Shown piece by piece: positions 3,479 through 26,224 of a stretch of 27,133 bases of DNA; position 1 is the stretch's first letter; each line of letters begins with the position of its first letter. Location: the NCBI GenBank assembly GCA_009602725.1, contig WELB01000003.1, forward strand, positions 1,496,262 through 1,523,394. The letters run 5' to 3'. The translations under genes were made by a program, and so were the position numbers. The notes under the pieces are model-generated. The model was not told the DNA's origin and made no database searches. It was given only the letters and a program-made list of their open reading frames with translations. The DNA is from Spirogloea muscicola. Lineage: Eukaryota > Streptophyta > Zygnematophyceae > Spirogloeales > Spirogloeaceae.

Positions 3479-3950
3479 TACAGTCATACCTTGTTATAGG
3501 CACGTCGGCCGGTTTGGCGAAAATATGTGACTATATCGAGGGTGTGCTTGTTCGTTGTAGAGGCACTATTGCCCCCAAATGTGCTTCTACCGTGACAATC
3601 AGCAACATATCAAATTATATTGAAAGATGGCTTTTTGGGTTCAGGTTTAGGGTTAGGGTTTAAAAACTAGACCCTAACCCTAGACCTAAACCCTAAACCC
3701 CACACCCTAAACCCTAAACCTCAGCCCTAATCCCTGTAGAGAATATGAGAGATATGTTGATTTGTTTTCATATTGGCACTTCTAGTGGGGGAATCTGCCC
3801 CGTAAAACTGTGCCTGTACATAACGGCACGTTCCCTTATCGAGTCACATTTGCCTGGGGGAAAAAGTGCTTCCCGCAAAATGGTGCCACTATCGAGGATT
3901 TAGGGAAATGTGCCCTTATCTTGGGGTGCCTATAACGAGGTTTGACTGTA
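3479..3950. mobile_element. Non-autonomous Tc1/mariner-like element (MITE)
   Basis: The left end (3481-3503) and the reverse complement of the right end (3926-3948) match at 21 of 23 positions. Both begin CAGTCA and end GTTATAGGCAC. Each is flanked outside by TA (3479-3480 and 3949-3950), the target duplication of Tc1/mariner transposons. The end sequence resembles pogo/Tigger-type mariner termini, from memory. Inside, subterminal stretches such as the TGTGACT motif near 3525 also recur in inverted form toward the right end. There is no transposase ORF, so it would need enzyme from elsewhere. An inverted telomere-like block sits in the middle. Confidence 0.8.
3643..3735. repeat. Internal telomere-like repeat block, TTTAGGG / CCCTAAA, inverted
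   Basis: A short TTTAGGG-type stretch (3646-3661) is followed after about 10 bases by a longer degenerate array in the opposite orientation (CCCTAAC, CCTAAAC, CCCTAAA units, 3670-3735). The units match the TTTAGGG repeat of plants and many green algae. The block is wholly inside the MITE, so it is an interstitial telomere-like repeat rather than a chromosome end. Confidence 0.85.
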
Positions 3951-4512: not shown

Positions 4513-7500
4513 TCATACAATCTGACCCACATTGCGCATGAGCATGACGCGGGTCTCCGTCATGTCCTCCATGGCGTACCGCAGGCCCTCGCGGCCCAGC
4601 CCCGAGTCTTTCACGCCGCCGTATGGCTGCCATCGAGAGCAACACAAGGGGCATCAAGCTCTGCAGACATGTGGGGCCCTATACGTGTTTGCAGCTTTGG
4701 CAGGATGCACACACTGTAGCACAAACACTCGAGTCATCAACGCTCACTTGCGAGTCAATGCGCATGCTTGGCACATCGTTGATGCACACGCCGCCAACAT
4801 CAAGGTGCTCAAATGCATAGAAGGTCTTGTTCAGGTCCCTGGTGAACACTCCAGCCTGCAGTGCTCACCGGAGCTTGGCTGTTAACAGAACATAGTGACT
4901 TGGAGGTCGCTGCCACAGGGCCTCGACTTTGGTTGGTTCACTTAAAGAATACACTGATAATATTCACACATCCTTAAAGCGACCTTCAGCGTGGCCACAA
5001 GGATGAGGAGACCGTAAACAGGACTGGCCTTTTTACGACACCCAAGACAGCGCATCGATTACCTGGAGCCCAAACTTTGAGGCATTAACATCGTTGATTG
5101 TAGTTACGAAGTCGTCGTAAGGAATGAGCACCACCACGGGCCCAAAGACCTCCTCGCAGTGGACCTGCGCAAATACGATGCAAGACAATTGTCTACATCA
5201 GCTCCTTGAGCTGGCCAGCGAGCTAGGAACAGTCATTCGTGGAAGTTCAGTGCACTCTCTAGTCCAATCAGGGTTGTGGAGTGTACTAAGGCACGGCTGC
5301 ATGCTGGTCAGGTAGAGTCTGTGCACATCATTTGAAGCACTACCTTCACAGACAGACGAGTGCTCACCTCCATGTCAGGCCTCACATTCTCCATGACGGT
5401 TGCCTTGTAGAAGACGCCGTCGCGTTTGCCACCTATCAGGACTCTGTTGTGGGGAAACGGTGGCAAACCACATGAGCTACAGATGTGTTGTCAGCAGAGA
5501 CGGCACAATGCATGAGCCGTAGAAAGGAGAGGTAAGGCCTCCTTGTTTTGGCAAGAGTTGCTAGGGTGTAGTGGTTACCGCGCCCCATTCTCAACTGCGT
5601 GGTCCACCCACTGCTCGATACGCTTGGCCTCTGACTCGGCAATTATTGGGCCTATAAATGTCTCCTCCTCTAGTGGGTCCCCCTGAGACAAGTGCTCAGC
5701 AGTCTCAGAAGGGCCTCGTGGCAATGTACTTTTTGAGTGAGAAATATCATAAGAGTGATGTGTTTACACCATCGTGTTACACGACATTTGGCTCGCATCC
5801 ACTTTCAGCAAGTGAGACAGCACTTGCTGACTTCATCATACCTCTTTGAGCTGCGAGACTGCCTCAGTCAGCGCCCCTTTCACCGTCTCATAAAGGTTCT
5901 GCATAGGCAGAGCAATGAGGAGGATCTCAGTGGCACGGATATGGATTCCTTTTCGTTCCTGAGTGGGTGTCCTCTATCACACAAAGTGACGCCCTATTGC
6001 CTCATTGCCTGATGCATCTCTAGTTTCTGCTTTCCGCTGGTACCATTGCAAGCTCGTGAGATGGACAAGGCAAACTGCACGATTTACAGTCAAATTAGTG
6101 ATAGTTGAAAGTCTGTCATGCCTTCTTGATGTATATCCGCTGCACGCTGATGCACGACTGCCCACTCTGGTAGAAACCACCGTGCACAATGCGTGCAATT
6201 ACACCGCCAAGGTCAGGCACTAGCTCCTGTCACACCAGCAGAACAATGCATAAGCAGGTTAATCAAATGACAGCAGAAAGCAAGACTAATTACCTGCTGA
6301 AATGGAAGCAGGGTGGGTCTGAGCCCTTGTAAGTAGTCATCTCTGCTATTGATGTTGCTTGGGTAGCAAAACAGTGCTGAGGATGGCTGAGCCTTTAGCA
6401 AAGTGGGAAGCATACGTCAACAATGCAGGCAGCATTGCCGCCCAGCTCTAGCACCACTTTTTTCTTTCCAGCTCGAGCCTTCATAGCCCACCCAACCTGT
6501 TGCGGACAAGCCATATCAATATGTTAGGTGAAACCACGTCAGGTAGGTATCAGCATAGAATTGGGCACTGAGTCTCTCCAGGGGGCATTGCAAAACCTGG
6601 CAGCAACACAGCACGGCGATGCAATTGCAGAGAGAGAGAAGAGCAGCTAATGAGAGACGGAACACACAGATGGGGACCCCGTGAAGGAGAGGAGCTTGAA
6701 TCTATCGTCCGTTGTGAAGAGATCAGCTCCATCTCTAGCGCATGGGAGGATGGAAAATGCTCCTTCCGGCAGGTTCGCACGCGACAGGATCTCTCCGAGA
6801 AGAAGTGCCCCGATGGGCGTACGGCTGCAAGCCAGCGGCAAAGCGGCAAAGCGGCAACAAGGATAAGGAATCATCTCACGGAAGTTGGCGTTCAGCTGAT
6901 GCTCATGAAACCAGGTCAATGTGGTTAAGCCCCAAGCCTGCATGAAGGTGGCAGTCCGCACCTAGCAGGCTTCATCACGAACGGGCAGCCGACAGCAAGC
7001 GCCGGGGCAATTTTGTGAGCAGCCTGAAAAGCAGATGATCAGCAGTCAGAGCATTGCAGCTGCGTGTGACAATCTCACAATGTAGCACATTGATTGCCTG
7101 CAATCAACTCAATGCCACATGAGACAGGAGGATCCTTGCGGCTCGCTTAGCGACGGGCCCAAGGGCTTACCAGATTGAGGGGGAAGTTGAACGGGCTGAC
7201 CATGCTGATGGGGCCTATCGGGAACCTCCGCACCTGTCAGCAAAATGTGCAGGGCTCCACCCAATCACGCCACCAGCAATCAGGATGCAATTCATGGCAC
7301 AATTACCAGGTCTGACAGCATCGCACCATGTCTTCAGTCACACAACTTGGAAACCGTGGGCTGTTCCTGCATACTGTAAGGCATGCACCAAAGATAGCAG
7401 CTTACCAAGGACTGGTAACCCTTTGCTCTTTCTGAAATGTCTATGGGGGCATACTCGCCATACCTTCACCTCAGCACAAGCAGGAGTAGTGTCAGACCCA

Positions 7501-8840
7501 TATGTCATTTCTCCGGGATGCAGCGAGAAGGTCAGCATGTCCCAGAAGTATTTCTATTTGCTGGCGGTGAGGAGACAGCTTGCATGCACAACTATTGCCT
7601 TGGGCCTTGATTGGACACAACTTGGACTGGGCACGGCTAATCCACAGTATAAAGCTAGGATAGCTGGACTGCGTCAATGGCCATGGGCAACAAGGACTGG
7701 TGCTTGCTTACATACGGACGCTCTCCTCTGCAGCAATCTGGAAGGTGTCAATGAGCCTCTGCACCTCTCCTCTTGAGTCCCTATTGATCATGAACGAAGT
7801 GCACAATTAGTAGCCAATTAAATTATCACTTGGTGAATTTGTTATGCCCAATCTGATGGTCCACTCTTTCTGGGAAGGCTTTATGCAATCTTCAGAGAAT
7901 GAGCACCAAGTACCTCGAAGCGTCAACCCAACAGGACCTGCTGAGAGCAGGGCCGGTAAGGGCAGCGGGCTACCTGATGGGCTTTCCAGCCTCCATGCAG
8001 AGGGCCTTGGCAAACTCCTCCGACCTCGCCTTCACCTCCCTCACAACCATCTCACAGACCGCCTTGCGCTCGTAGCTGGCCATGGCTGCCATTGCAGGCG
8101 CAGCCCGCTCTGCCGCTGCAATGGCCTCCTCAATGTCCGCTGCATGCGCCAGGGCGCACCTCGCGCCCACCTTGCCTGTTCCAATGGATATGGATGCTCA
8201 TGGGTGTGGCTACATGAAGCAGAAAAGCTTGACAACAATCTCACCTCTAGTAGCAAAGATAACACACAGAGGAAGTGAAGCTGTGAACGTATGTAAGAAG
8301 ACCGAGAGCACATGTGACACACTTCAGCCAGCTTGTGTTGAGCCTGAGTGTGACAAAGTAGGCAGTTCTGGAGCATAACAAAGAGGAAAGACATAGCACT
8401 AACTCACCCGTGTACTTGTTAGTGACCTCCAGGTCTGTGTTGGGCTGCTTGGCGACGTTAGCGATGTAGAACGGGTATGTGGTGACCTCCGACTCTGAGG
8501 TGCTCGCTTCTGCCCTTGGCGGAGCTGCACTCTGGTGCTCAGAGGCCCCTTCCTTGCTCGCAGATTGCAGCATGCCGAACTCCGCCGAGGACACCTTGAC
8601 TGGCGCTTCAGCCTTCGCGGGGCCAGTGTTGTCTGTCAACAAAGGGGCCCCACCAGGGTGCGGGACGTCCGCAGACTTCTCGCCCGTGTTGATGTCCGCC
8701 TCGTCGTCCTTGCGCGCCGGGACGGAGGTGAGCGTCGAGCCGCAGATGGCTGGGACAGCTGCCACCTCCTTGAGCTTACCGTTGAGGACCTGCACATGAT
8801 ACCGCCGGTCGGCAGCCATGATAAGACATGCTGTGAAGGT
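4513..8840 (-). CDS. Aldehyde dehydrogenase family protein (second half of the ThDP-enzyme/ALDH locus)
   Basis: NAD(P)-dependent oxidation of an aldehyde to an acid; substrate unknown. Exons: 8840-8408 (internal Met at 8819), 8175-7974, 7780-7716, 7510-7470 (weak), 7233-7171, 7023-6962, 6824-6668, 6496-6416, 6226-6122, 5898-5842, 5682-5579, 5443-5368, 5164-5063, 4855-4748, 4626-4513. From the 8819 Met it is 582 residues. Motifs in order: EAGKPI (about 200), SPFNFPLNL (about 250), FTGSP, catalytic Glu in ELGGN (about 351), catalytic Cys in GQSCIS (about 386), [31 protein letters not shown]. The Glu-Cys spacing of 35 fits the family. Residues 1-114 form an Ala/Pro/Ser/Glu-rich extension with no ALDH similarity, like a linker. 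All phases agree, but exon 4 was chosen mainly by phase. The intron after 6122 begins with GC. Confidence 0.9.
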
Positions 8841-8939
8841 CTCACAGATCAAGTAAGTGATATCGACCACAAGTATGATCACGGTCATTCTTCATATGGG
8901 GTTTTGGCAATGGCAGCCAGATTGATGACTAGATCTCAC
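8841..8939 (-). other. Proposed 99-nt intron joining the ThDP-enzyme and ALDH frames, or inter-cistron spacer
   Basis: On the minus strand a GTGAGA donor follows the last ThDP-enzyme codons (8940). A GAG acceptor at 8843-8841 would join it in phase to the ALDH frame, giving 7 extra residues before the internal Met at 8819. The acceptor has a poor pyrimidine tract. Without splicing, the first frame runs 15 more codons to a TGA at 8894-8892, leaving 72 nt before the ATG at 8819. No separate promoter or terminator is evident in this gap. Confidence 0.5.
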
Positions 8940-11900
8940 GTTAGCCTGCACGTGGTCCTTGCGGACGAGCCCAGGCAGCTCCTTGTCAAGCACCTCATTG
9001 TCCTCAGTGTAGTCAACCGGGACCTGCTTGCAGCAGCTCAGCGCTGAGCTTAAGCACACAATTGTATGCAGGCAGGCACAGTACACAGCAAGAGCAGAAC
9101 ATGACATAATAGACGGCAATAGACGAGCCAAGTCCGAGACCGACCTCAATGAGCTTGACGCCAGGTAAGACGTCAAGGCACTGGTGCAGGATCTCGAGGA
9201 ACTCGTCCGCCTTGGTCACACGGAAGCCCTTGGCTCCGTAGCTGGTGGCTCACAGTGCCCTCGCCATAGTCAAACACCGAAAACAGCCGGCCAGCAGGAC
9301 ATATTCCGAGGTCATGTAGATCAATCATGTCAACCGCTATTCCTGGGTGAGGTGTGGAGACAGGGGCCCACCTGTTGGCATATGCGACAAAGTCGGGGTT
9401 GTCCAGTTCCAAACCGAATCTACCAATCACCATTTCCACCAATGCAAGGAAAGGGGCAGTCAGCTCACAAAGTTCAGTGGCAGGCTAAGTAGGGAGACTA
9501 TTAGAGTGGTTGAGGACGCAATGTTGAAATATTCAAGTATGGCCCCAAAAGAAGGACATGCCAATCTTCACATGGACCCCGCTTAGCCTGCCCGCGCCGC
9601 GACCCACAAGGGCACAATTCTATCCAAGTTTGAAGGGCTCCGCACTTGTTGAACCCCGCCGCATGCTGCTTCCACTTGATCATGCCGTAGCCATTGTCGT
9701 TGATGACAATTACAGTCATGTTGAGCTTGATTCTGACCGCAGTCTCCAGCTCCTGTTAACCAGGGGTAATTGTCAGAATTCACAAATGAGGTGACATAAG
9801 CTAATTTTGGACAAGATATCTGTGACCACGTGAATTGGAATCATGACTACTCGAAGAACAGTAGTTAAGTAGAATGGTCATATAGTTATTCCACTGTGAC
9901 TGTCCCTGGCTCCACCATCCTTCCACATTCTGAAGCTTGAGGAAGCTTACGAGGCCCTTCGAAGAAGCTTACACGGCTTCGGCCTCGTACAATGCATGCG
10001 CACCTGCGAATTCATCATGAAACCTCCGTCGCCGCATACAGCCACCACCTTTTTCTCTGGGTAGAGCAGCGAGACAGCCATTGCCGAGGGCAGACCGGCG
10101 CCCATTGTGGCGAGTGCGTTGTCAAGCAAAAGAGTGTTTGGTTGATAGGCCTGTCAAGCACCTCCTTGCTTCCTCAGTACGGTGAATGATTCTTGAAGCC
10201 CATTGGATATAGTGACTGGCAGAATAACTATAGAAGGCATTGCAGGACTTGAGACATCCTAAAGTCAAAGCCTGTCTCGTCTTCGTCAAGCTCTTCTGTA
10301 GGTACCATGTGGAGCGAGCAGCACTGATCCAGAAGCCTTGTGGTTCACACTGCACCAACCTTGTAGCAGCGTGCAAAGTAGATCTTGTACATGCCTGCAT
10401 TAGAGAGAGCAAGATGATGCAAAGGGTGATCAAACGCAGACCAGCCTGCTGCCTGCTCCAGTAACAAGGATCTCTAGCATCTCCAGATGGGGACATCATA
10501 CCACGAAGCAGTGCTCAAATGGCGAACCCACTGGTCTAGAATAAGCCAGCAAGCCATGTCTGCACTTAGTGTCACAATGGACAGAAGGAGATGTGAAACC
10601 CGCTTACCGTTGTCCAGACAGGCGACACCATCATCTGGGAGTGCTCTCCTGCGCAGGTTGATGTGGAAAAACTTAGCGCACGCATGTTGTCTTGAGGACC
10701 AACGTGAACTTGGACTCGCAGGAGGACCAGGAAATACACTGGTGAGTCCAAAGCTAGGTAAGTCGAGATAAAATGCTGTGAAGATAAGCACCTCACGTCG
10801 GCCACAACACGCTGTGGGGAGAGGGGAAAGGCCGGGTTGTCAACATTTTTGCGCAGCGAGTCCTCAAAGTCCTTCTTCACCTGCGCGTTGGTCCCAGAAA
10901 AGGTAACCTTCAGAGGTCAAGCTTAAAAGCTAAGCTTGCAGCTGCATATGGAGTCTAAGCTTGAACCTTATAACCTGCACCCGTGATACTTAGAATCATA
11001 ACACTGCAAGGCTGTGCTGGGTAAAGGGGGAGGCAGGCAGCAGCTTGACAACAGTCTCGGAACTCTATTGGCTGGCACAGGATGTCCAGGTCCACTCACG
11101 CCCATCATGAAGGAATGGTCCCAGTGGCTCTGGGGCTCCAGGCGATTTGTGAGCTGCCAGACGGCGTTGGCGATGTCGCCAACAACCTCCAGCTGCGGGA
11201 AGTAGACGTTGTCTACCTTGGCGCTGTAGAAGTTCACGTGTATCACCATTGGCGGCTCGTTGTGCCTGAAGCTCCCATCAAGTCACAATGGTGGCCGTCA
11301 CAATATGAATTGGAAGACAATACAACTTCTTCCCAATATATCTCAGGCAGTTAGCTCCTGCTGGATGGACCTCTCTGGATCCAAGAGGGAGGTGTGCTGG
11401 CTTAAGAGGGTGGCCATTGCCTCATAATGAAGGGCGGCTTCTCGACGACGTCATGGCCAATGTTGATGATGAGATCCGCAGTCTCGCAGCACAGATGCGG
11501 GAAGTCGTTGGCGGACAGCGCGCAGCAGCCAAGGCACAGCGGGTGCGAATCTGCGCACGCTCAGTCAGTGCCGCCCACCAGGATCCTTCAGCTCACATGG
11601 CTAAGTAAACTGGTCTTCATGCACGCTGCAGGATCGCAGGCTTTCTTGATGCGTGAGTTAGCCGTGGCAGAGTCCCTGTGCCAGCTTATGTGGAAAGGAA
11701 AGTGGTCAGCGAGGCATCACCTGGGACGACGCCCTTGCCCATCTGCGTTGTGACAAAGGGAACGCCGAGCTTGTCGACGAACTGCCTCAGCCTGCCGCCA
11801 TCAGCACTCACCGCAGCAAAAGTGAGCGCCCTCTTCGTGACAGCCTTAAGGCCAAGGGCGCGTCCCACTCAGGCATTGCTTAGTATCCAGCTTGAAGCAG

Positions 11901-13232
11901 CAAGAAGCTTAATATCACTGCAGACTGGATATACCATACCCCATGAGAAAGACTCGACGGTGAGCTACTACTTGGTAGCAGTTCCACTGTGAGCTTATCA
12001 CCTCGTAACCTGCTTTGACAATGACCTTTCTTCAATGCAGACATGCATTGAAAGCTTGAGCTTGGTTGAGGAGCCGACCGGACGCCTTAGAGCTTAGCTG
12101 CAGTATGGCTGCAGCAACATACATCTTTTGGGTGAGTTTGCGGTTGGCGCCGGCGCCAATGAGGAGCAGCGGGCGCTGGGCGGCCTCGATCATCGCGACA
12201 GCCTTAGCAATGGCCTTCTCCTCGGCGACGGGCCGCCGAACCTGGTGCACCGGAAAGAGCTCGGCGTTGGTGAGCGTGCTTGCAATGTCCTCTGGGAGCT
12301 CTAGGTGCACCGCCCCGGGCCGCTCCTCCATGGACAGCCGCGCCGCCTCTCGTACGAGCGACGGCACCAGGTCGCCGTCGGCAATCTGCCGCGTATACTG
12401 CAGCAGGAGAAGCAGGCCGGCCGACGGCTTCAATTCAGGCCCACAGTCACCCGAGCCACTGATGCAAGTTCTCTGAGGTGCACAAGTGGGAAGTGCAAGC
12501 AGTTTGCTTATCAAGTCAATGTACATTTAACACTAGTTGAGCGTCAGACGTAAATTGGTGGAATTCGAGGGTGGTAGCACCTCGCACCTTGGTGATGGGT
12601 CGCAGATTCTCAACAATGTCTACGATCTGAAATGAGCCCTGCTTGCTCTTCCGTATTGGCTTCTGACCCGTAATCATCATCTGCGCTCGTCTCACCAGCC
12701 AAAGTATGTTAGGGGTGTCAGGGCGACGAGGAGAGCCGTCGCCGCACTGATGCAATGTGGCCGTCTCAGCTTGGCGCGGCAGCCAGCAAGGTGCTCGAGT
12801 TGAGGTGGGGGGCCGACCATGGGGAAGCCGGCAAGCTGAGCATAAGCAGCGGCGGTTGTGAAATTGGTCGCGCCGGGACCGAGCGTGGAGAGGCAGACGC
12901 CGCACTGGCCTGTCAGGCGGCCAACGGTGGCGGCCATGAAGCCCGCCGCCTGCTCGTGCCGCGTCACAATCAGCTTGATGGTCGAGGTCTGCAGCGAGTC
13001 CAGAAGGTCCATGTTCTCCTCGCCGGGGATGCCAAAAATGTACCTGCACCATTGCTTTCACGCGGCATGGAGCAGCTCAGCATGCCGCCTGCAGAACTTT
13101 GGGCAGCAGGCATTCGTGGGCAACGAGAGCGGCGAGCAGGAGCAGTGTGAGCGCGCTCCCGACTCACTCGATGCGCTCGTTCTCCAGGGCCTTGACGAAC
13201 ACGTCCGACGTCTTGCGCTTATCGCCACCCAT
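8940..13232 (-). CDS. Acetolactate-synthase-like thiamine-diphosphate enzyme, bacterial type
   Basis: It resembles the large-subunit acetolactate synthase family, which condenses 2-keto acids; the actual substrate is inferred. Exons: 13232-13168, 13043-12818, 12680-12588, 12397-12123, 11791-11721, 11550-11421, 11265-11100, 10880-10792, 10648-10608, 10394-10360, 10150-10004, 9752-9646, 9419-9372, 9241-9145, 9023-8940. They give 558 codons with every phase consistent. Motifs: FGIPGEEN; cofactor-activating Glu in RHEQAA (about 50); LSTLGPGATN; ITGQKPIRKSKQG; ERPGAVHLELPEDIA; TTQMGKGVV; PQRVVADV; LDNALATMGAGLPSA; ThDP motif GDGG (about 440) through NDNGYG; VPVDYTEDNEVLDKELP near the end. The protein starts MGGDKRKTSDVFVKAL, directly at the catalytic domain, with no plastid transit peptide, unlike plant acetolactate synthase. 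One intron (11420-11266) uses a GC donor. Other ThDP enzymes, such as hydroxyacyl-CoA lyases, are less likely. Confidence 0.88.
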
Positions 13233-14701: not shown

Positions 14702-14929
14702 TTGCTGTGCTCTCAAATTGCCGCCTCCGCCGCCTCCACTACCGCCGCTCTCGCCGGCGCCTTTTCCGCCGCCGTCGCCGCTACTGCTGCTCTCACCGCC
14801 GCCAATTCCGCCGCCCCCGCCGCCGCCTCTTCCGCGGCCTCTTCAGGCCCATCGCCGCCGGCCCGTTGCCGACGTGGGAGCGAGGCTGCCGAGAGCCGCG
14901 ACTTCAGCCCCGCTGCGCCCGCAGATGGC

Positions 14930-24000: not shown

Positions 24001-24283
24001 GGGGTAAAAGGTATCACCCGCCGGGTGGTCCTTGTACTTGTGAGCCTCGTCCCTTGGTGCTCCCTCCCCAGCGCACTCCGAAGTTTTGGCGGGAGTAGGG
24101 GAAGGACGTTGGCGCCAAATTCGGACCTCCCCCCACACTGCCTCCTCACCTCACCTCCGCCTCCCCCACCTGCCGCGCCTCAGCAGCCGCACCCTTCTCC
24201 CGCGAGACCAGCGAGCGCCGCGGCGGCGGCGGCGGCGGCGGAGGAGGAGGAGGAGGAGCGCGGCGCGGCGCCGAGCGGCCGCC

Positions 24284-24353
24284 ATGTACGGCGGCGTGGA
24301 GGCGTACGGCCATGGCGGCGAGCCGGGCGCCAGCCAGTTCGCCTCGGCGGTTT

Positions 24354-24395
<42 letters not shown>

Positions 24396-26224
24396 GTTCT
24401 CGAGCCAGAGCACAGGCCTGCTGCCGCTGACGGTCAAGCGCATGGCCACGGCGGCGCCCAAGGGCGCGGCCGACGAGTCCTTCTCCATCGACGGCCAGGA
24501 CATCAACGCCGTGAGCCCGCCGACGCCGCCGACGCCGCCGCCGCCGCCACCGCCGCCGCCGCCGCTTACCTCTGGCAGTCTGCCGCGTCTGCTGGCATGC
24601 CCACGTTGCCGCTGCTGCACAGCATGGAGCTGGGCTACAGCAGCTGCGGCGTGTATGGCAGGTCACGGTGGTGGGGCGCGTGCTGTCTCGCGAGGACAAG
24701 GCCACAGACACCACCTTCCTGCTCAACGACGGCACTGGCCAGATCGAGGTCAAGCGCTGGTACTGCCGCCACCGCCGCCGCCGCCGCCGCTGCGCCGCCG
24801 CCGCTGAGCAGCGCATGGTGGCTTGGTGCTCAACTCGCACCTCAGGGCTGTTTTGACGCGAAACACTGAGGGTCGCGGCTAATGGTGCTGCCAGGAACAA
24901 TGGTGAGGACATCGGCGAGGGCCAGGACCTGGCTGCCATCCAGTAAGCGAGACTGAGGCACGGCACCGAGCGCGCGCGGCGCCCACCGCTGCCGCGGCCA
25001 CTGCCGCCGTCCCCTGCCACTGCTTGTCCGCTTGGCTAGTGGCGGTGGCCCCCCTTCTCTGACTTCACCAGCATGGCCGCCGTCGACTGTCGGTTGCAGG
25101 ATTGGGGCCTACGTCCGTGTGCACGGCCACTTGCGTGTCTTCCAGGGCCGCAAGTACCTCGTTGCTTTCTGCGTCAGGTCCAGGCACCTTTCCCGCCAAT
25201 CCTTGAGAGTATCAGAACATCTTATGTCAATGATCACTTGACTCTGATAAAACTGGTCAATCTCAACAACTACTGATAGTCCTTCTCCTTCACGAGGAAT
25301 TCTTGTTTGTAGTGTCCGTCTCGGCGGCACTTGACGGTACCGTGCTTGGTCATGCAGGTCCGTTACGGACTTCAACGAGGTCACGTTTCACAATCTCGAG
25401 TGCATATTTGTGCACCTTGCCGCTTCGGCGCCGGCTGCACAGGTGAATATTGGCCTGTCACGCTACTGAAGCTGCTGCTGCACCAGCCTCTGCAGGAAGC
25501 CTGAGCTGCCGCCCTTTGCTGCCGCTGCCACTTGTGACTGTCTTGCAGCCCTCTGCCGCTGTTGGTGCGTCCGACGGACCTTACGCGAGGCCGCCACCGT
25601 ATGCTGCCACGCCGGTCAACCCTGTCAGCGGCGCCGGCGCCGGCATGGGCGATGGGCAGGGCATGGATGACGTCCAGAAGGTCGTCCTTGGTTTCTACGA
25701 GAACCCCAAGAACGCGTGAGTGGTTGCCACCTTTCCGCCACCATCGAGTCTGTCCTTCATGGCCACCATCAGTAAAGCCAACCCCATGGTAAAGGTGTCG
25801 TTGCCGCGGGCTTTGGCACGGATGACTTGAGTAAGCTCTGCAAGAGATTGTTAAGAAGCAGCGAGGGGTGACGGCGCGTCAAGTCTGCCGTGGCTCATAC
25901 AGGGAGAAGGAGCAGGGCATCTCGTGGATGGAAGTGGCGGGCTCGATCCCAGGTTACAGCAGGGCGCAGATCAAGTACAGTCCCCTCGCGCTCTCCTTGC
26001 CACCATCTGCAGCAGCAGGAGGCTGACTAGCCCTCTCCGCATGCCACCTCCTGCGTGACAAGCGATGGACAACCCTCTGAGGCACTGGGCAGGGCCTGTT
26101 TCCGATCACCCGGCATTGGCCCCTGCGCTTGCGCGTATGCAGAGCTGCGGTCGACTTCCTGGTCAACGAGGGCCAGCTGTACTCCACGATCGACGACAAC
26201 CACTTCAAGTGGACCGGCGCCTGA
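24284..26224 (+). CDS. RPA2: Replication protein A 32-kDa subunit (RPA2)
   Basis: RPA2 is the middle subunit of the nuclear ssDNA-binding heterotrimer used in replication and repair. Exons: 24284-24510, 24662-24759, 24895-24942, 25100-25177, 25358-25442, 25549-25715, 25903-25974, 26143-26224; about 285 residues. The start has a strong context (GCCGCCATGT) and reads MYGG, typical of plant RPA2. A Gly run, SSQSTG and PLTVKRM follow, then DESFSIDGQDINAV. The OB fold carries VTVVGRVLSREDKATDTTF, LNDGTGQIEVKRW, YVRVHGHLRVFQGRKYLVAF and VTDFNEVTFHNLECIFVH. A Pro/Gly/Ala linker leads to a C-terminal winged helix (KVVLGFYENPKN, ISWMEVAGSIPGYS, FLVNEGQLYSTIDDNHFKW). All phases agree from 24510 on. Within exon 1 the MYGG frame and the SSQS frame differ, so a base is missing or two are extra near the CGG run. 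Confidence 0.93.
24345..24398 (+). repeat. CGG/GGC trinucleotide run in RPA2 exon 1
   Basis: About fifteen GGC units encode poly-Gly in the conserved RPA2 frame and poly-Ala in the frame of the start codon. Such runs are prone to slippage and miscalling, which fits the frame break seen here. Confidence 0.85.
24516..24567 (+). repeat. CCG trinucleotide run in the first RPA2 intron
   Basis: An imperfect CCG array begins just inside the intron (24511-24661). It is open in one frame as poly-Pro, but the GTGAGC donor and the downstream OB-fold exon show it is intronic. Confidence 0.75.

Follow-up and report, generated by a model that had tools for sequence, protein, structure and literature searches.

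A spliced gene of Spirogloea muscicola joins a thiamine diphosphate enzyme to an ALDH21-type aldehyde dehydrogenase, and probably encodes a bifunctional 2-oxoglutarate decarboxylase/succinic semialdehyde dehydrogenase

Two enzyme frames in one gene

We analysed 27,133 nucleotides (nt) of contig WELB01000003.1 of the alga Spirogloea muscicola; this whole stretch is called the window here, and positions are counted from its first letter. From 13232 to 4513, the minus strand of the window reads as one gene of 30 exons, with a single open reading frame (ORF) that in our splice model encodes a product of 1137 amino acids. A previous reading of this DNA, made from the letters alone (the sequence-only reading), had described two enzyme frames placed head to tail in this interval, the first with an unspliced stop at 8892 and the second with an ATG at 8819, and both frames and both positions were seen as described. 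Pfam analysis of the spliced product identified the combination of TPP_enzyme N/M/C plus Aldedh that this reading proposed to look for: TPP_enzyme_N at residues 7-120, TPP_enzyme_M at 191-325, TPP_enzyme_C at 384-530 and Aldedh at 674-1127, in that order. The product is therefore laid out as a thiamine diphosphate (ThDP) enzyme domain, a linker of about 104 residues and an aldehyde dehydrogenase (ALDH) domain. Its gene has 29 introns of 121 to 331 nt, 27 of them GT-AG and two GC-AG (introns 6 and 24). The splice-site scores and the existence of three conserved copies give strong support to the joining of the two enzyme frames in one spliced gene. The features of the gene are as follows.

13230..13232, minus strand: start codon, in the strong context GCAGCC ATGG
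8940..13232, minus strand: ThDP-enzyme half, exons 1-15, residues 1-558 (splice model; TPP_enzyme N/M/C; NF006187)
13232-13168, 13043-12818, 12680-12588, 12397-12123, 11791-11721, 11550-11421, 11265-11100 and 10880-10792, minus strand: exons 1-8
11266..11420, minus strand: GC-AG intron 6, kept in three copies
10648-10608, 10394-10360, 10150-10004, 9752-9646, 9419-9372, 9241-9145 and 9023-8940, minus strand: exons 9-15
8790..8939, minus strand: junction intron, 150 nt, phase 0, GT-AG, containing the in-frame stop 8894-8892 and the ATG at 8819 (splice scores; three copies)
8478..8789, minus strand: linker of about 104 residues (559-662), rich in Ala/Ser/Glu/Pro, first part of exon 16 (8789-8408); ratio of nonsynonymous to synonymous divergence (dN/dS) between copies 0.21-0.29
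4513..8477, minus strand: ALDH21-type aldehyde dehydrogenase half, rest of exon 16 and exons 17-30, residues 663-1137, the stop codon ending at 4513 (Aldedh 458 bits; moss ALDH21 5mz5 653.5 bits; tree)
5899..6121, minus strand: GC-AG intron 24, kept in three copies

Three copies in the host genome

The host genome (G000; 153 Mb in 471 contigs) carries the window copy on contig C3 and two further full copies of the gene, on C61 and C36 (L004 and L005). The three copies agree in all 29 splice-site pairs, in the frame and in the domains, with products of 1137, 1137 and 1141 amino acids; the linker exon of the C36 copy has one 12-nt in-frame insertion, and the junction intron varies in length (150, 160 and 154 nt). 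The copies have diverged by a pairwise synonymous distance (dS) of 0.11-0.17. Comparison between them gave a dN/dS of 0.04-0.05 for the ThDP half, 0.05-0.10 for the ALDH half and 0.21-0.29 for the linker, which is faster-changing yet held as protein, under purifying selection. Two partial copies, on C315 (L006:1-4042) and C175 (L007:1-776), show 100% identity with the end of the C36 copy, for 4042 bases in the first and 776 in the second, and then break at a single N; both stretches look like assembly joins rather than extra genes.

Matches on three contigs were also observed for two other genes: the E1 component of 2-oxoglutarate dehydrogenase (OGDH), matched exon by exon on C97, C134 and C136 (with a second related set on C75, C77 and C156), and a separate, putative acetolactate-synthase-like gene, matched likewise by exon on C1, C4 and C7 (34-37% identity). 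The occurrence of unrelated genes on three contigs each, together with the dS of about 0.11-0.17 between the fusion copies, suggests a triplicated, hybrid or phased polyploid genome. Note that glutamate decarboxylase was matched, again exon by exon, on two contigs only (C6 and C186) and the RuBisCO small subunit on four; the latter matches support a photosynthetic host.

The junction intron

Without splicing, a stop at 8894-8892 closes the first frame; 72 nt further on is the ATG at 8819, which shares the frame of the ALDH. We scored the splice sites of this region with position-weight scores built from the gene's other 28 introns, using leave-one-out scores for comparison. The donor at 8939 scored 5.65 (the other donors of the gene range from 1.0 to 10.7, leave-one-out). 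With 14 AGs listed at the junction, the acceptor ending at 8790 scored 9.74, above all 28 leave-one-out acceptors (maximum 9.3). With this acceptor, the best, the intron measures 150 nt and keeps the phase, and its excision eliminates the stop together with the ATG at 8819. The sequence-only reading had placed here a 99-nt intron (8939-8841) and had taken the ATG at 8819 as the start of the second frame. We rejected this shorter intron because its acceptor scores -4.02 and has lost its AG in the C61 copy, and the ATG, with the acceptor at 8790, sits inside the intron. The fusion itself, which that reading had offered, is upheld by the splice scores and the three copies; the size that it gave, about 1147 residues with a linker of about 115, gives way to 1137 residues with a linker of about 104.

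The same reading had offered a dicistronic mRNA as the alternative, in which the two frames would be translated separately from one transcript, as in green-algal bicistrons. The unspliced stop followed by an ATG in frame with the ALDH is what such an arrangement would show. In addition, bicistronic transcripts do exist in green algae, many with inter-ORF regions shorter than 100 nt, and their translation is by leaky scanning, favoured by a weak start context of ORF1 and few ATGs before ORF2 (PMC11291117, a preprint, in its accessible part). Here, however, a strong intron takes out both the stop and the ATG. Moreover, the ATG at 8819 shares the ALDH frame in two copies, those of the window and C61, but is shifted out of it by a 1-nt deletion in C36; in C36 another ATG, 10 nt upstream of the equivalent position, falls in frame, and no ATG of the intron is in frame with the ALDH in all three copies. 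ORF1 is 1674 nt long, contains 31 ATGs and starts in a strong context, and retention of the junction intron would place 34 ATGs ahead of 8819, a situation hostile to leaky scanning. Finally, the linker is conserved as coding sequence. Judging from these features, translation of the ALDH frame by leaky scanning is very unlikely, and a dicistronic mRNA is a highly improbable explanation of the locus.

Even less probable is that two separate neighbouring genes were wrongly joined by our model. The two halves are separate genes in bacteria, as described below, and the ALDH21 of land plants is described as a gene of its own, standing alone (PMC7823795, accessible part). Against this, just 72 nt lie between the unspliced frames, all three copies retain the open 382-nt linker exon under purifying selection, and the top-scoring splice acceptor of the gene sits precisely at the junction.

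The ThDP half belongs to the PRK08322 family

Residues 6-547 of the ThDP half scored 837.3 bits with NF006187 (PRK08322, 'acetolactate synthase large subunit'), the curated NCBI cut-off being 509. Both models for AlsS fell below their cut-offs (TIGR02418, 398.3 vs 551.1 bits; NF006378, 441.7 vs 510 bits), and we rejected membership in the AlsS-type acetolactate synthases for this reason. The term 'acetolactate-synthase-like', used in the sequence-only reading, can be narrowed: the half probably decarboxylates 2-oxoglutarate.

For the residues we used the 2-oxoglutarate decarboxylase of Microcystis, MaKGD. The accessible part of PMC10418658 names E50, D435, D462, M410 and Y465 as its catalytic or ThDP residues, and V382, A408, L467, Q254, K386, K471 and H385 as positions docked onto 2-oxoglutarate or ThDP. 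These positions were placed in the alga by their spacing from conserved motifs, and the contacts come from the docking model. In the alga the five named residues correspond to E52, D438, D465, M413 and Y468. When 84 bacterial relatives were aligned (of 85 loci), the equivalents of K386, K471, M410, E50, D435 and D462 were the same in the alga and in 84/84 relatives; that of A408 was kept in the alga and in 82 of the 84, and that of Y465 in the alga and 73, with Phe in the other 11. E50, D435, D462 and Y465 are also present in the AlsS used as control, so they are not specific. At K386, K471 and M410 this control has Tyr, Gln and Leu; the residues there are Met, Lys and Met in 13bb, the nearest ThDP enzyme of solved structure.

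Several points tell against a 2-oxoglutarate decarboxylase. Four docked positions differ in the alga (V382 to N, H385 to Y, L467 to M, and Q254 to S or A, by offset), and they differ in 84/84 relatives too; the MaKGD residues at V382 and H385 are present in the AlsS control and absent from the alga. In addition, 13bb carries the name acetolactate synthase, and the MaKGD docking is itself a model. Since the lysines are kept but four docked positions differ, at two of which the AlsS control agrees with MaKGD, the residue evidence is mixed and leans on the two lysines.

PRK08322 was present in 0/2 cyanobacterial plasmid records, chromosomes being outside that scope. Among the viral contigs of IMG/VR we found 12 ThDP relatives, one of them 60% identical (L095:404-2032) and the others 25-37%; the contig of the first may be a bacterial one filed as viral.

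The ALDH half is probably of the ALDH21 type

Moss ALDH21 (5mz5) was the best of 257 solved matches of the ALDH half in the PDB, with 653.5 bits and 62% identity. Next came 5jry, 5kf0 and 5j6b (601-612 bits), which we take to be Burkholderia ALDH chains. R121, R228 and R457 are the arginines of ALDH21 that bind succinic semialdehyde (SSA) and NADP+; these positions are Arg in the moss chain (offset 18), in the alga (by alignment) and in two other aligned ALDH chains. The best family model for the algal ALDH was lactaldehyde dehydrogenase, below its cut-off. The characterised ALDH21 enzyme is a cytosolic, NADP+-dependent succinic semialdehyde dehydrogenase (SSADH), according to the accessible part of PMC7823795.

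Bacterial gene pairs of the same two subfamilies

A tblastn search with the fused protein matched 3803 plasmid records, 152 of which cover at least 80% of it at one place; the best was from Burkholderia, with 60.7% identity. For the bacterial genomes we analysed the best 80 of at least 585 relatives, and the adjacency counts describe these nearest relatives only. In 58 of the 80 loci the ThDP gene is followed on its own strand by an ALDH gene, within 340 nt in 57 of them and 1.6 kb away in the remaining one (L089). With a threshold of at least 50% identity to the algal ALDH, 38 of these enzymes count as ALDH21-type and 20 as other types. The same two subfamilies in the same order are thus present in 38/80 loci, where the ThDP proteins are 58-62% and the ALDHs 54-63% identical to the algal halves (best segment); in B. 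cenocepacia the two genes are 28 nt apart. The adjacency that the sequence-only reading suggested searching for in bacteria is therefore common among the nearest relatives, and it strengthens the proposal, made there on chemical grounds, that a lyase may hand an aldehyde to the dehydrogenase. None of the 63 loci showing both genes (the 58 plus five plasmid loci) has them fused.

We scanned six of the partner ALDHs against family models. The partner in M. nodulans, GabD, passed the cut-off of the SSADH equivalog (851.4 vs 828). For the SsaD-like partners in L019 and L029 the best model was also SSADH, below its cut-off, and the L029 partner matched the solved SSADH 4it9 with 471 bits. We take 4it9 to be SsaD of Synechococcus PCC 7002, and SsaD presumably represents this type. 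The partner in L016 had moss ALDH21 as its best solved match (300 bits). Our strongest argument for SSA as the common intermediate is this occurrence of a single ThDP family next to SSADHs of different types. A search of the open-licence literature for a function of bacterial PRK08322-ALDH pairs gave no result. The bacterial pairing also suggests that the name 'acetolactate synthase large subunit' (PRK08322) may be wrong for many genes.

Other observations at these loci weigh against this interpretation. No downstream ALDH was seen in 22 of the 80, nine of which are from Pseudomonas and five of which end less than 1.5 kb past the ThDP match; in one of the 22, L045, the ALDH is upstream. Only the M. 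nodulans partner of the six scanned passes the SSADH cut-off, and those in L009, L016 and L034 scored best with the lactaldehyde dehydrogenase model, below its cut-off. Note that the nine Pseudomonas loci (L015, L017, L037, L045, L051, L053, L059, L071 and L078) encode a ThDP enzyme with the same lysines and have no ALDH directly downstream.

These results bear on a further possibility, that the enzyme is fused but has another substrate, the ThDP half acting on pyruvate or a different 2-oxo acid and the ALDH oxidising the matching aldehyde. The names of NF006187 and 13bb agree with it, as do the four docked positions that differ in the alga, two of them with the MaKGD residue in the AlsS control, and the lactaldehyde dehydrogenase model, which is the best (below cut-off) for the algal ALDH and for 3/6 bacterial partners. 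On the other side, both AlsS models were missed, the AlsS control is without both lysines, the partner ALDHs include different SSADH types, and acetolactate-synthase-like matches are found in a separate gene of the alga. We consider another substrate unlikely, and prefer 2-oxoglutarate.

Trees and origin of the fusion

Two trees were built for each half. The quick ThDP tree included 84 of the 85 bacterial loci and two distant outgroups, whose long branches distorted it; the careful one had 42 rows, with the outgroups removed and 41 of those 84 loci. In the careful tree the ThDP enzyme of L029 was the closest to that of the alga (100/82). The quick ALDH tree had 62 rows, including 38 ALDH21-type and 22 other sequences, and was made without L035 (match in two frames), L021 and L057 (contig ends). 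The careful ALDH tree had 35 rows, including 24 ALDH21-type and 9 other sequences from the quick-tree set, with one moss and one algal sequence. In this tree alga and moss paired (93/52, not starred) next to the 24 bacterial sequences of their type (82/88), and in both ALDH trees the algal sequence was outside the sampled bacterial clade.

On the contrary side, in the careful tree the algal ThDP stood apart from those encoded beside an ALDH21-type partner, the quick ALDH tree placed the moss outside alga plus bacteria (86), and the algal ALDH is 63% identical to that of the bacterial locus L062, marginally more than the 62% to moss. The position of the ThDP half, together with that of the ALDH outside the bacterial clade, implies that the donor is unsampled or old. 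We infer an origin from a bacterial operon, and both halves may plausibly have come in one joint transfer. More speculatively, a bacterial pair of 2-oxoglutarate decarboxylase and SSADH might have entered the green lineage and become one gene, of which the ALDH21 of mosses, lycophytes and ferns would be the surviving C-terminal half and the algal gene the surviving whole, an ancestral bifunctional enzyme of the TCA bypass kept as a substrate-passing fusion; the original aldehyde source of ALDH21 would then be 2-oxoglutarate and not γ-aminobutyric acid. We regard this scenario as doubtful, and offer it tentatively.

Proposed function

Taken as a whole, the sequence evidence points, with a probability of about 0.7, to a bifunctional 2-oxoglutarate decarboxylase/SSADH, probably located in the cytosol, which would be the OgdA-SsaD bypass of cyanobacteria in fused form. 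The gene structure, the fusion, its conservation, the family to which each half belongs and the bacterial adjacency are read from the sequence; the substrate, the direction, the compartment and the channelling of the reactions are what we infer in this model. The N-terminal, PRK08322-type ThDP domain would convert 2-oxoglutarate to SSA and CO2 independently of coenzyme A (CoA), and the C-terminal domain, by its relation to ALDH21, would convert SSA and NADP+ to succinate and NADPH. The flexible linker would hold the domains together and keep the toxic SSA local for its handover. The result would be a CoA-independent, NADPH-yielding bypass of OGDH, working beside OGDH.

Regarding the compartment, the alignment shows that the algal start ATG precedes the bacterial start by just a few residues. 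In none of the three copies is there an in-frame ATG between the start and the upstream stop (89, 90 and 96 codons away), and within the 120 nt upstream of the start the copies differ by 2-nt indels. For these reasons the protein seems to lack a transit peptide and is likely to be cytosolic. Two points argue against parts of this model. The apparent absence of a transit peptide is judged from the sequence near the ATG, and a spliced upstream exon is possible. In addition, the matches to OGDH E1 and glutamate decarboxylase in the genome imply that the bypass is not required to close the cycle; it would be a parallel route.

The closest functional parallel is the cyanobacterial ogdA-ssaD operon, which carries out the conversion of 2-oxoglutarate to SSA and succinate (PMC5160925, accessible part). 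Its order is that of the algal halves: the gene for a ThDP decarboxylase (OgdA, SynPCC7002_A2770; MaKGD) is followed by that for an SSADH (SsaD, A2771). The algal enzyme shares with MaKGD the two docked lysines, the acidic ThDP residues, A408 and M410, and departs from it at the four docked positions; the cyanobacteria make two separate proteins, whereas the alga has one fusion with a putative SSADH of the ALDH21 type instead of the 4it9 type. Euglena has a 2-oxoglutarate decarboxylase and an SSADH that form a eukaryotic, CoA-independent route from 2-oxoglutarate to succinate, like the one proposed for the alga, but the Euglena enzymes are mitochondrial and separate (PMC6630311, accessible part). 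The ThDP enzyme of cyanobacteria is phylogenetically distinct from that of Euglena, as stated in the accessible part of PMC4224347. The pairs of Burkholderia, Paraglaciecola and Erythrobacter have the same subfamilies as the alga, in the same order, as separate genes, and the moss and early-plant ALDH21, the best solved match, stands alone in land plants and is the C-terminal half of a fusion here. The green-algal bicistronic genes likewise provide two enzymes per transcript unit; the algal gene differs in that its frame is joined by splicing.

We found no description of this ThDP-ALDH fusion in the accessible part of the open-licence literature; the chemistry is known, and the fused architecture appears to be new. 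If the proposed function is correct, a eukaryote has a CoA-independent bypass from 2-oxoglutarate to succinate in one protein, probably outside the mitochondrion, and a route known as separate enzymes in cyanobacteria and Euglena reaches the green lineage. It would also suggest an ancestral partner for ALDH21, a plant stress gene family, and provide an example of a bacterial gene pair kept together in a nuclear genome by fusion.

Other features of the window

No match to Rfam at gathering scores was found in the window, and Pfam gave none at E 0.01 for eight other single ORFs of it. Downstream of the gene, at 3667-3735 and within the contig, there are about 10 degenerate copies of CTAAACC, which are plant-type TTTAGGG telomere-like repeats. 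Finally, GC-rich simple-repeat tracts of CCG/GCC are located at 14720-14844 and 24130-24804.

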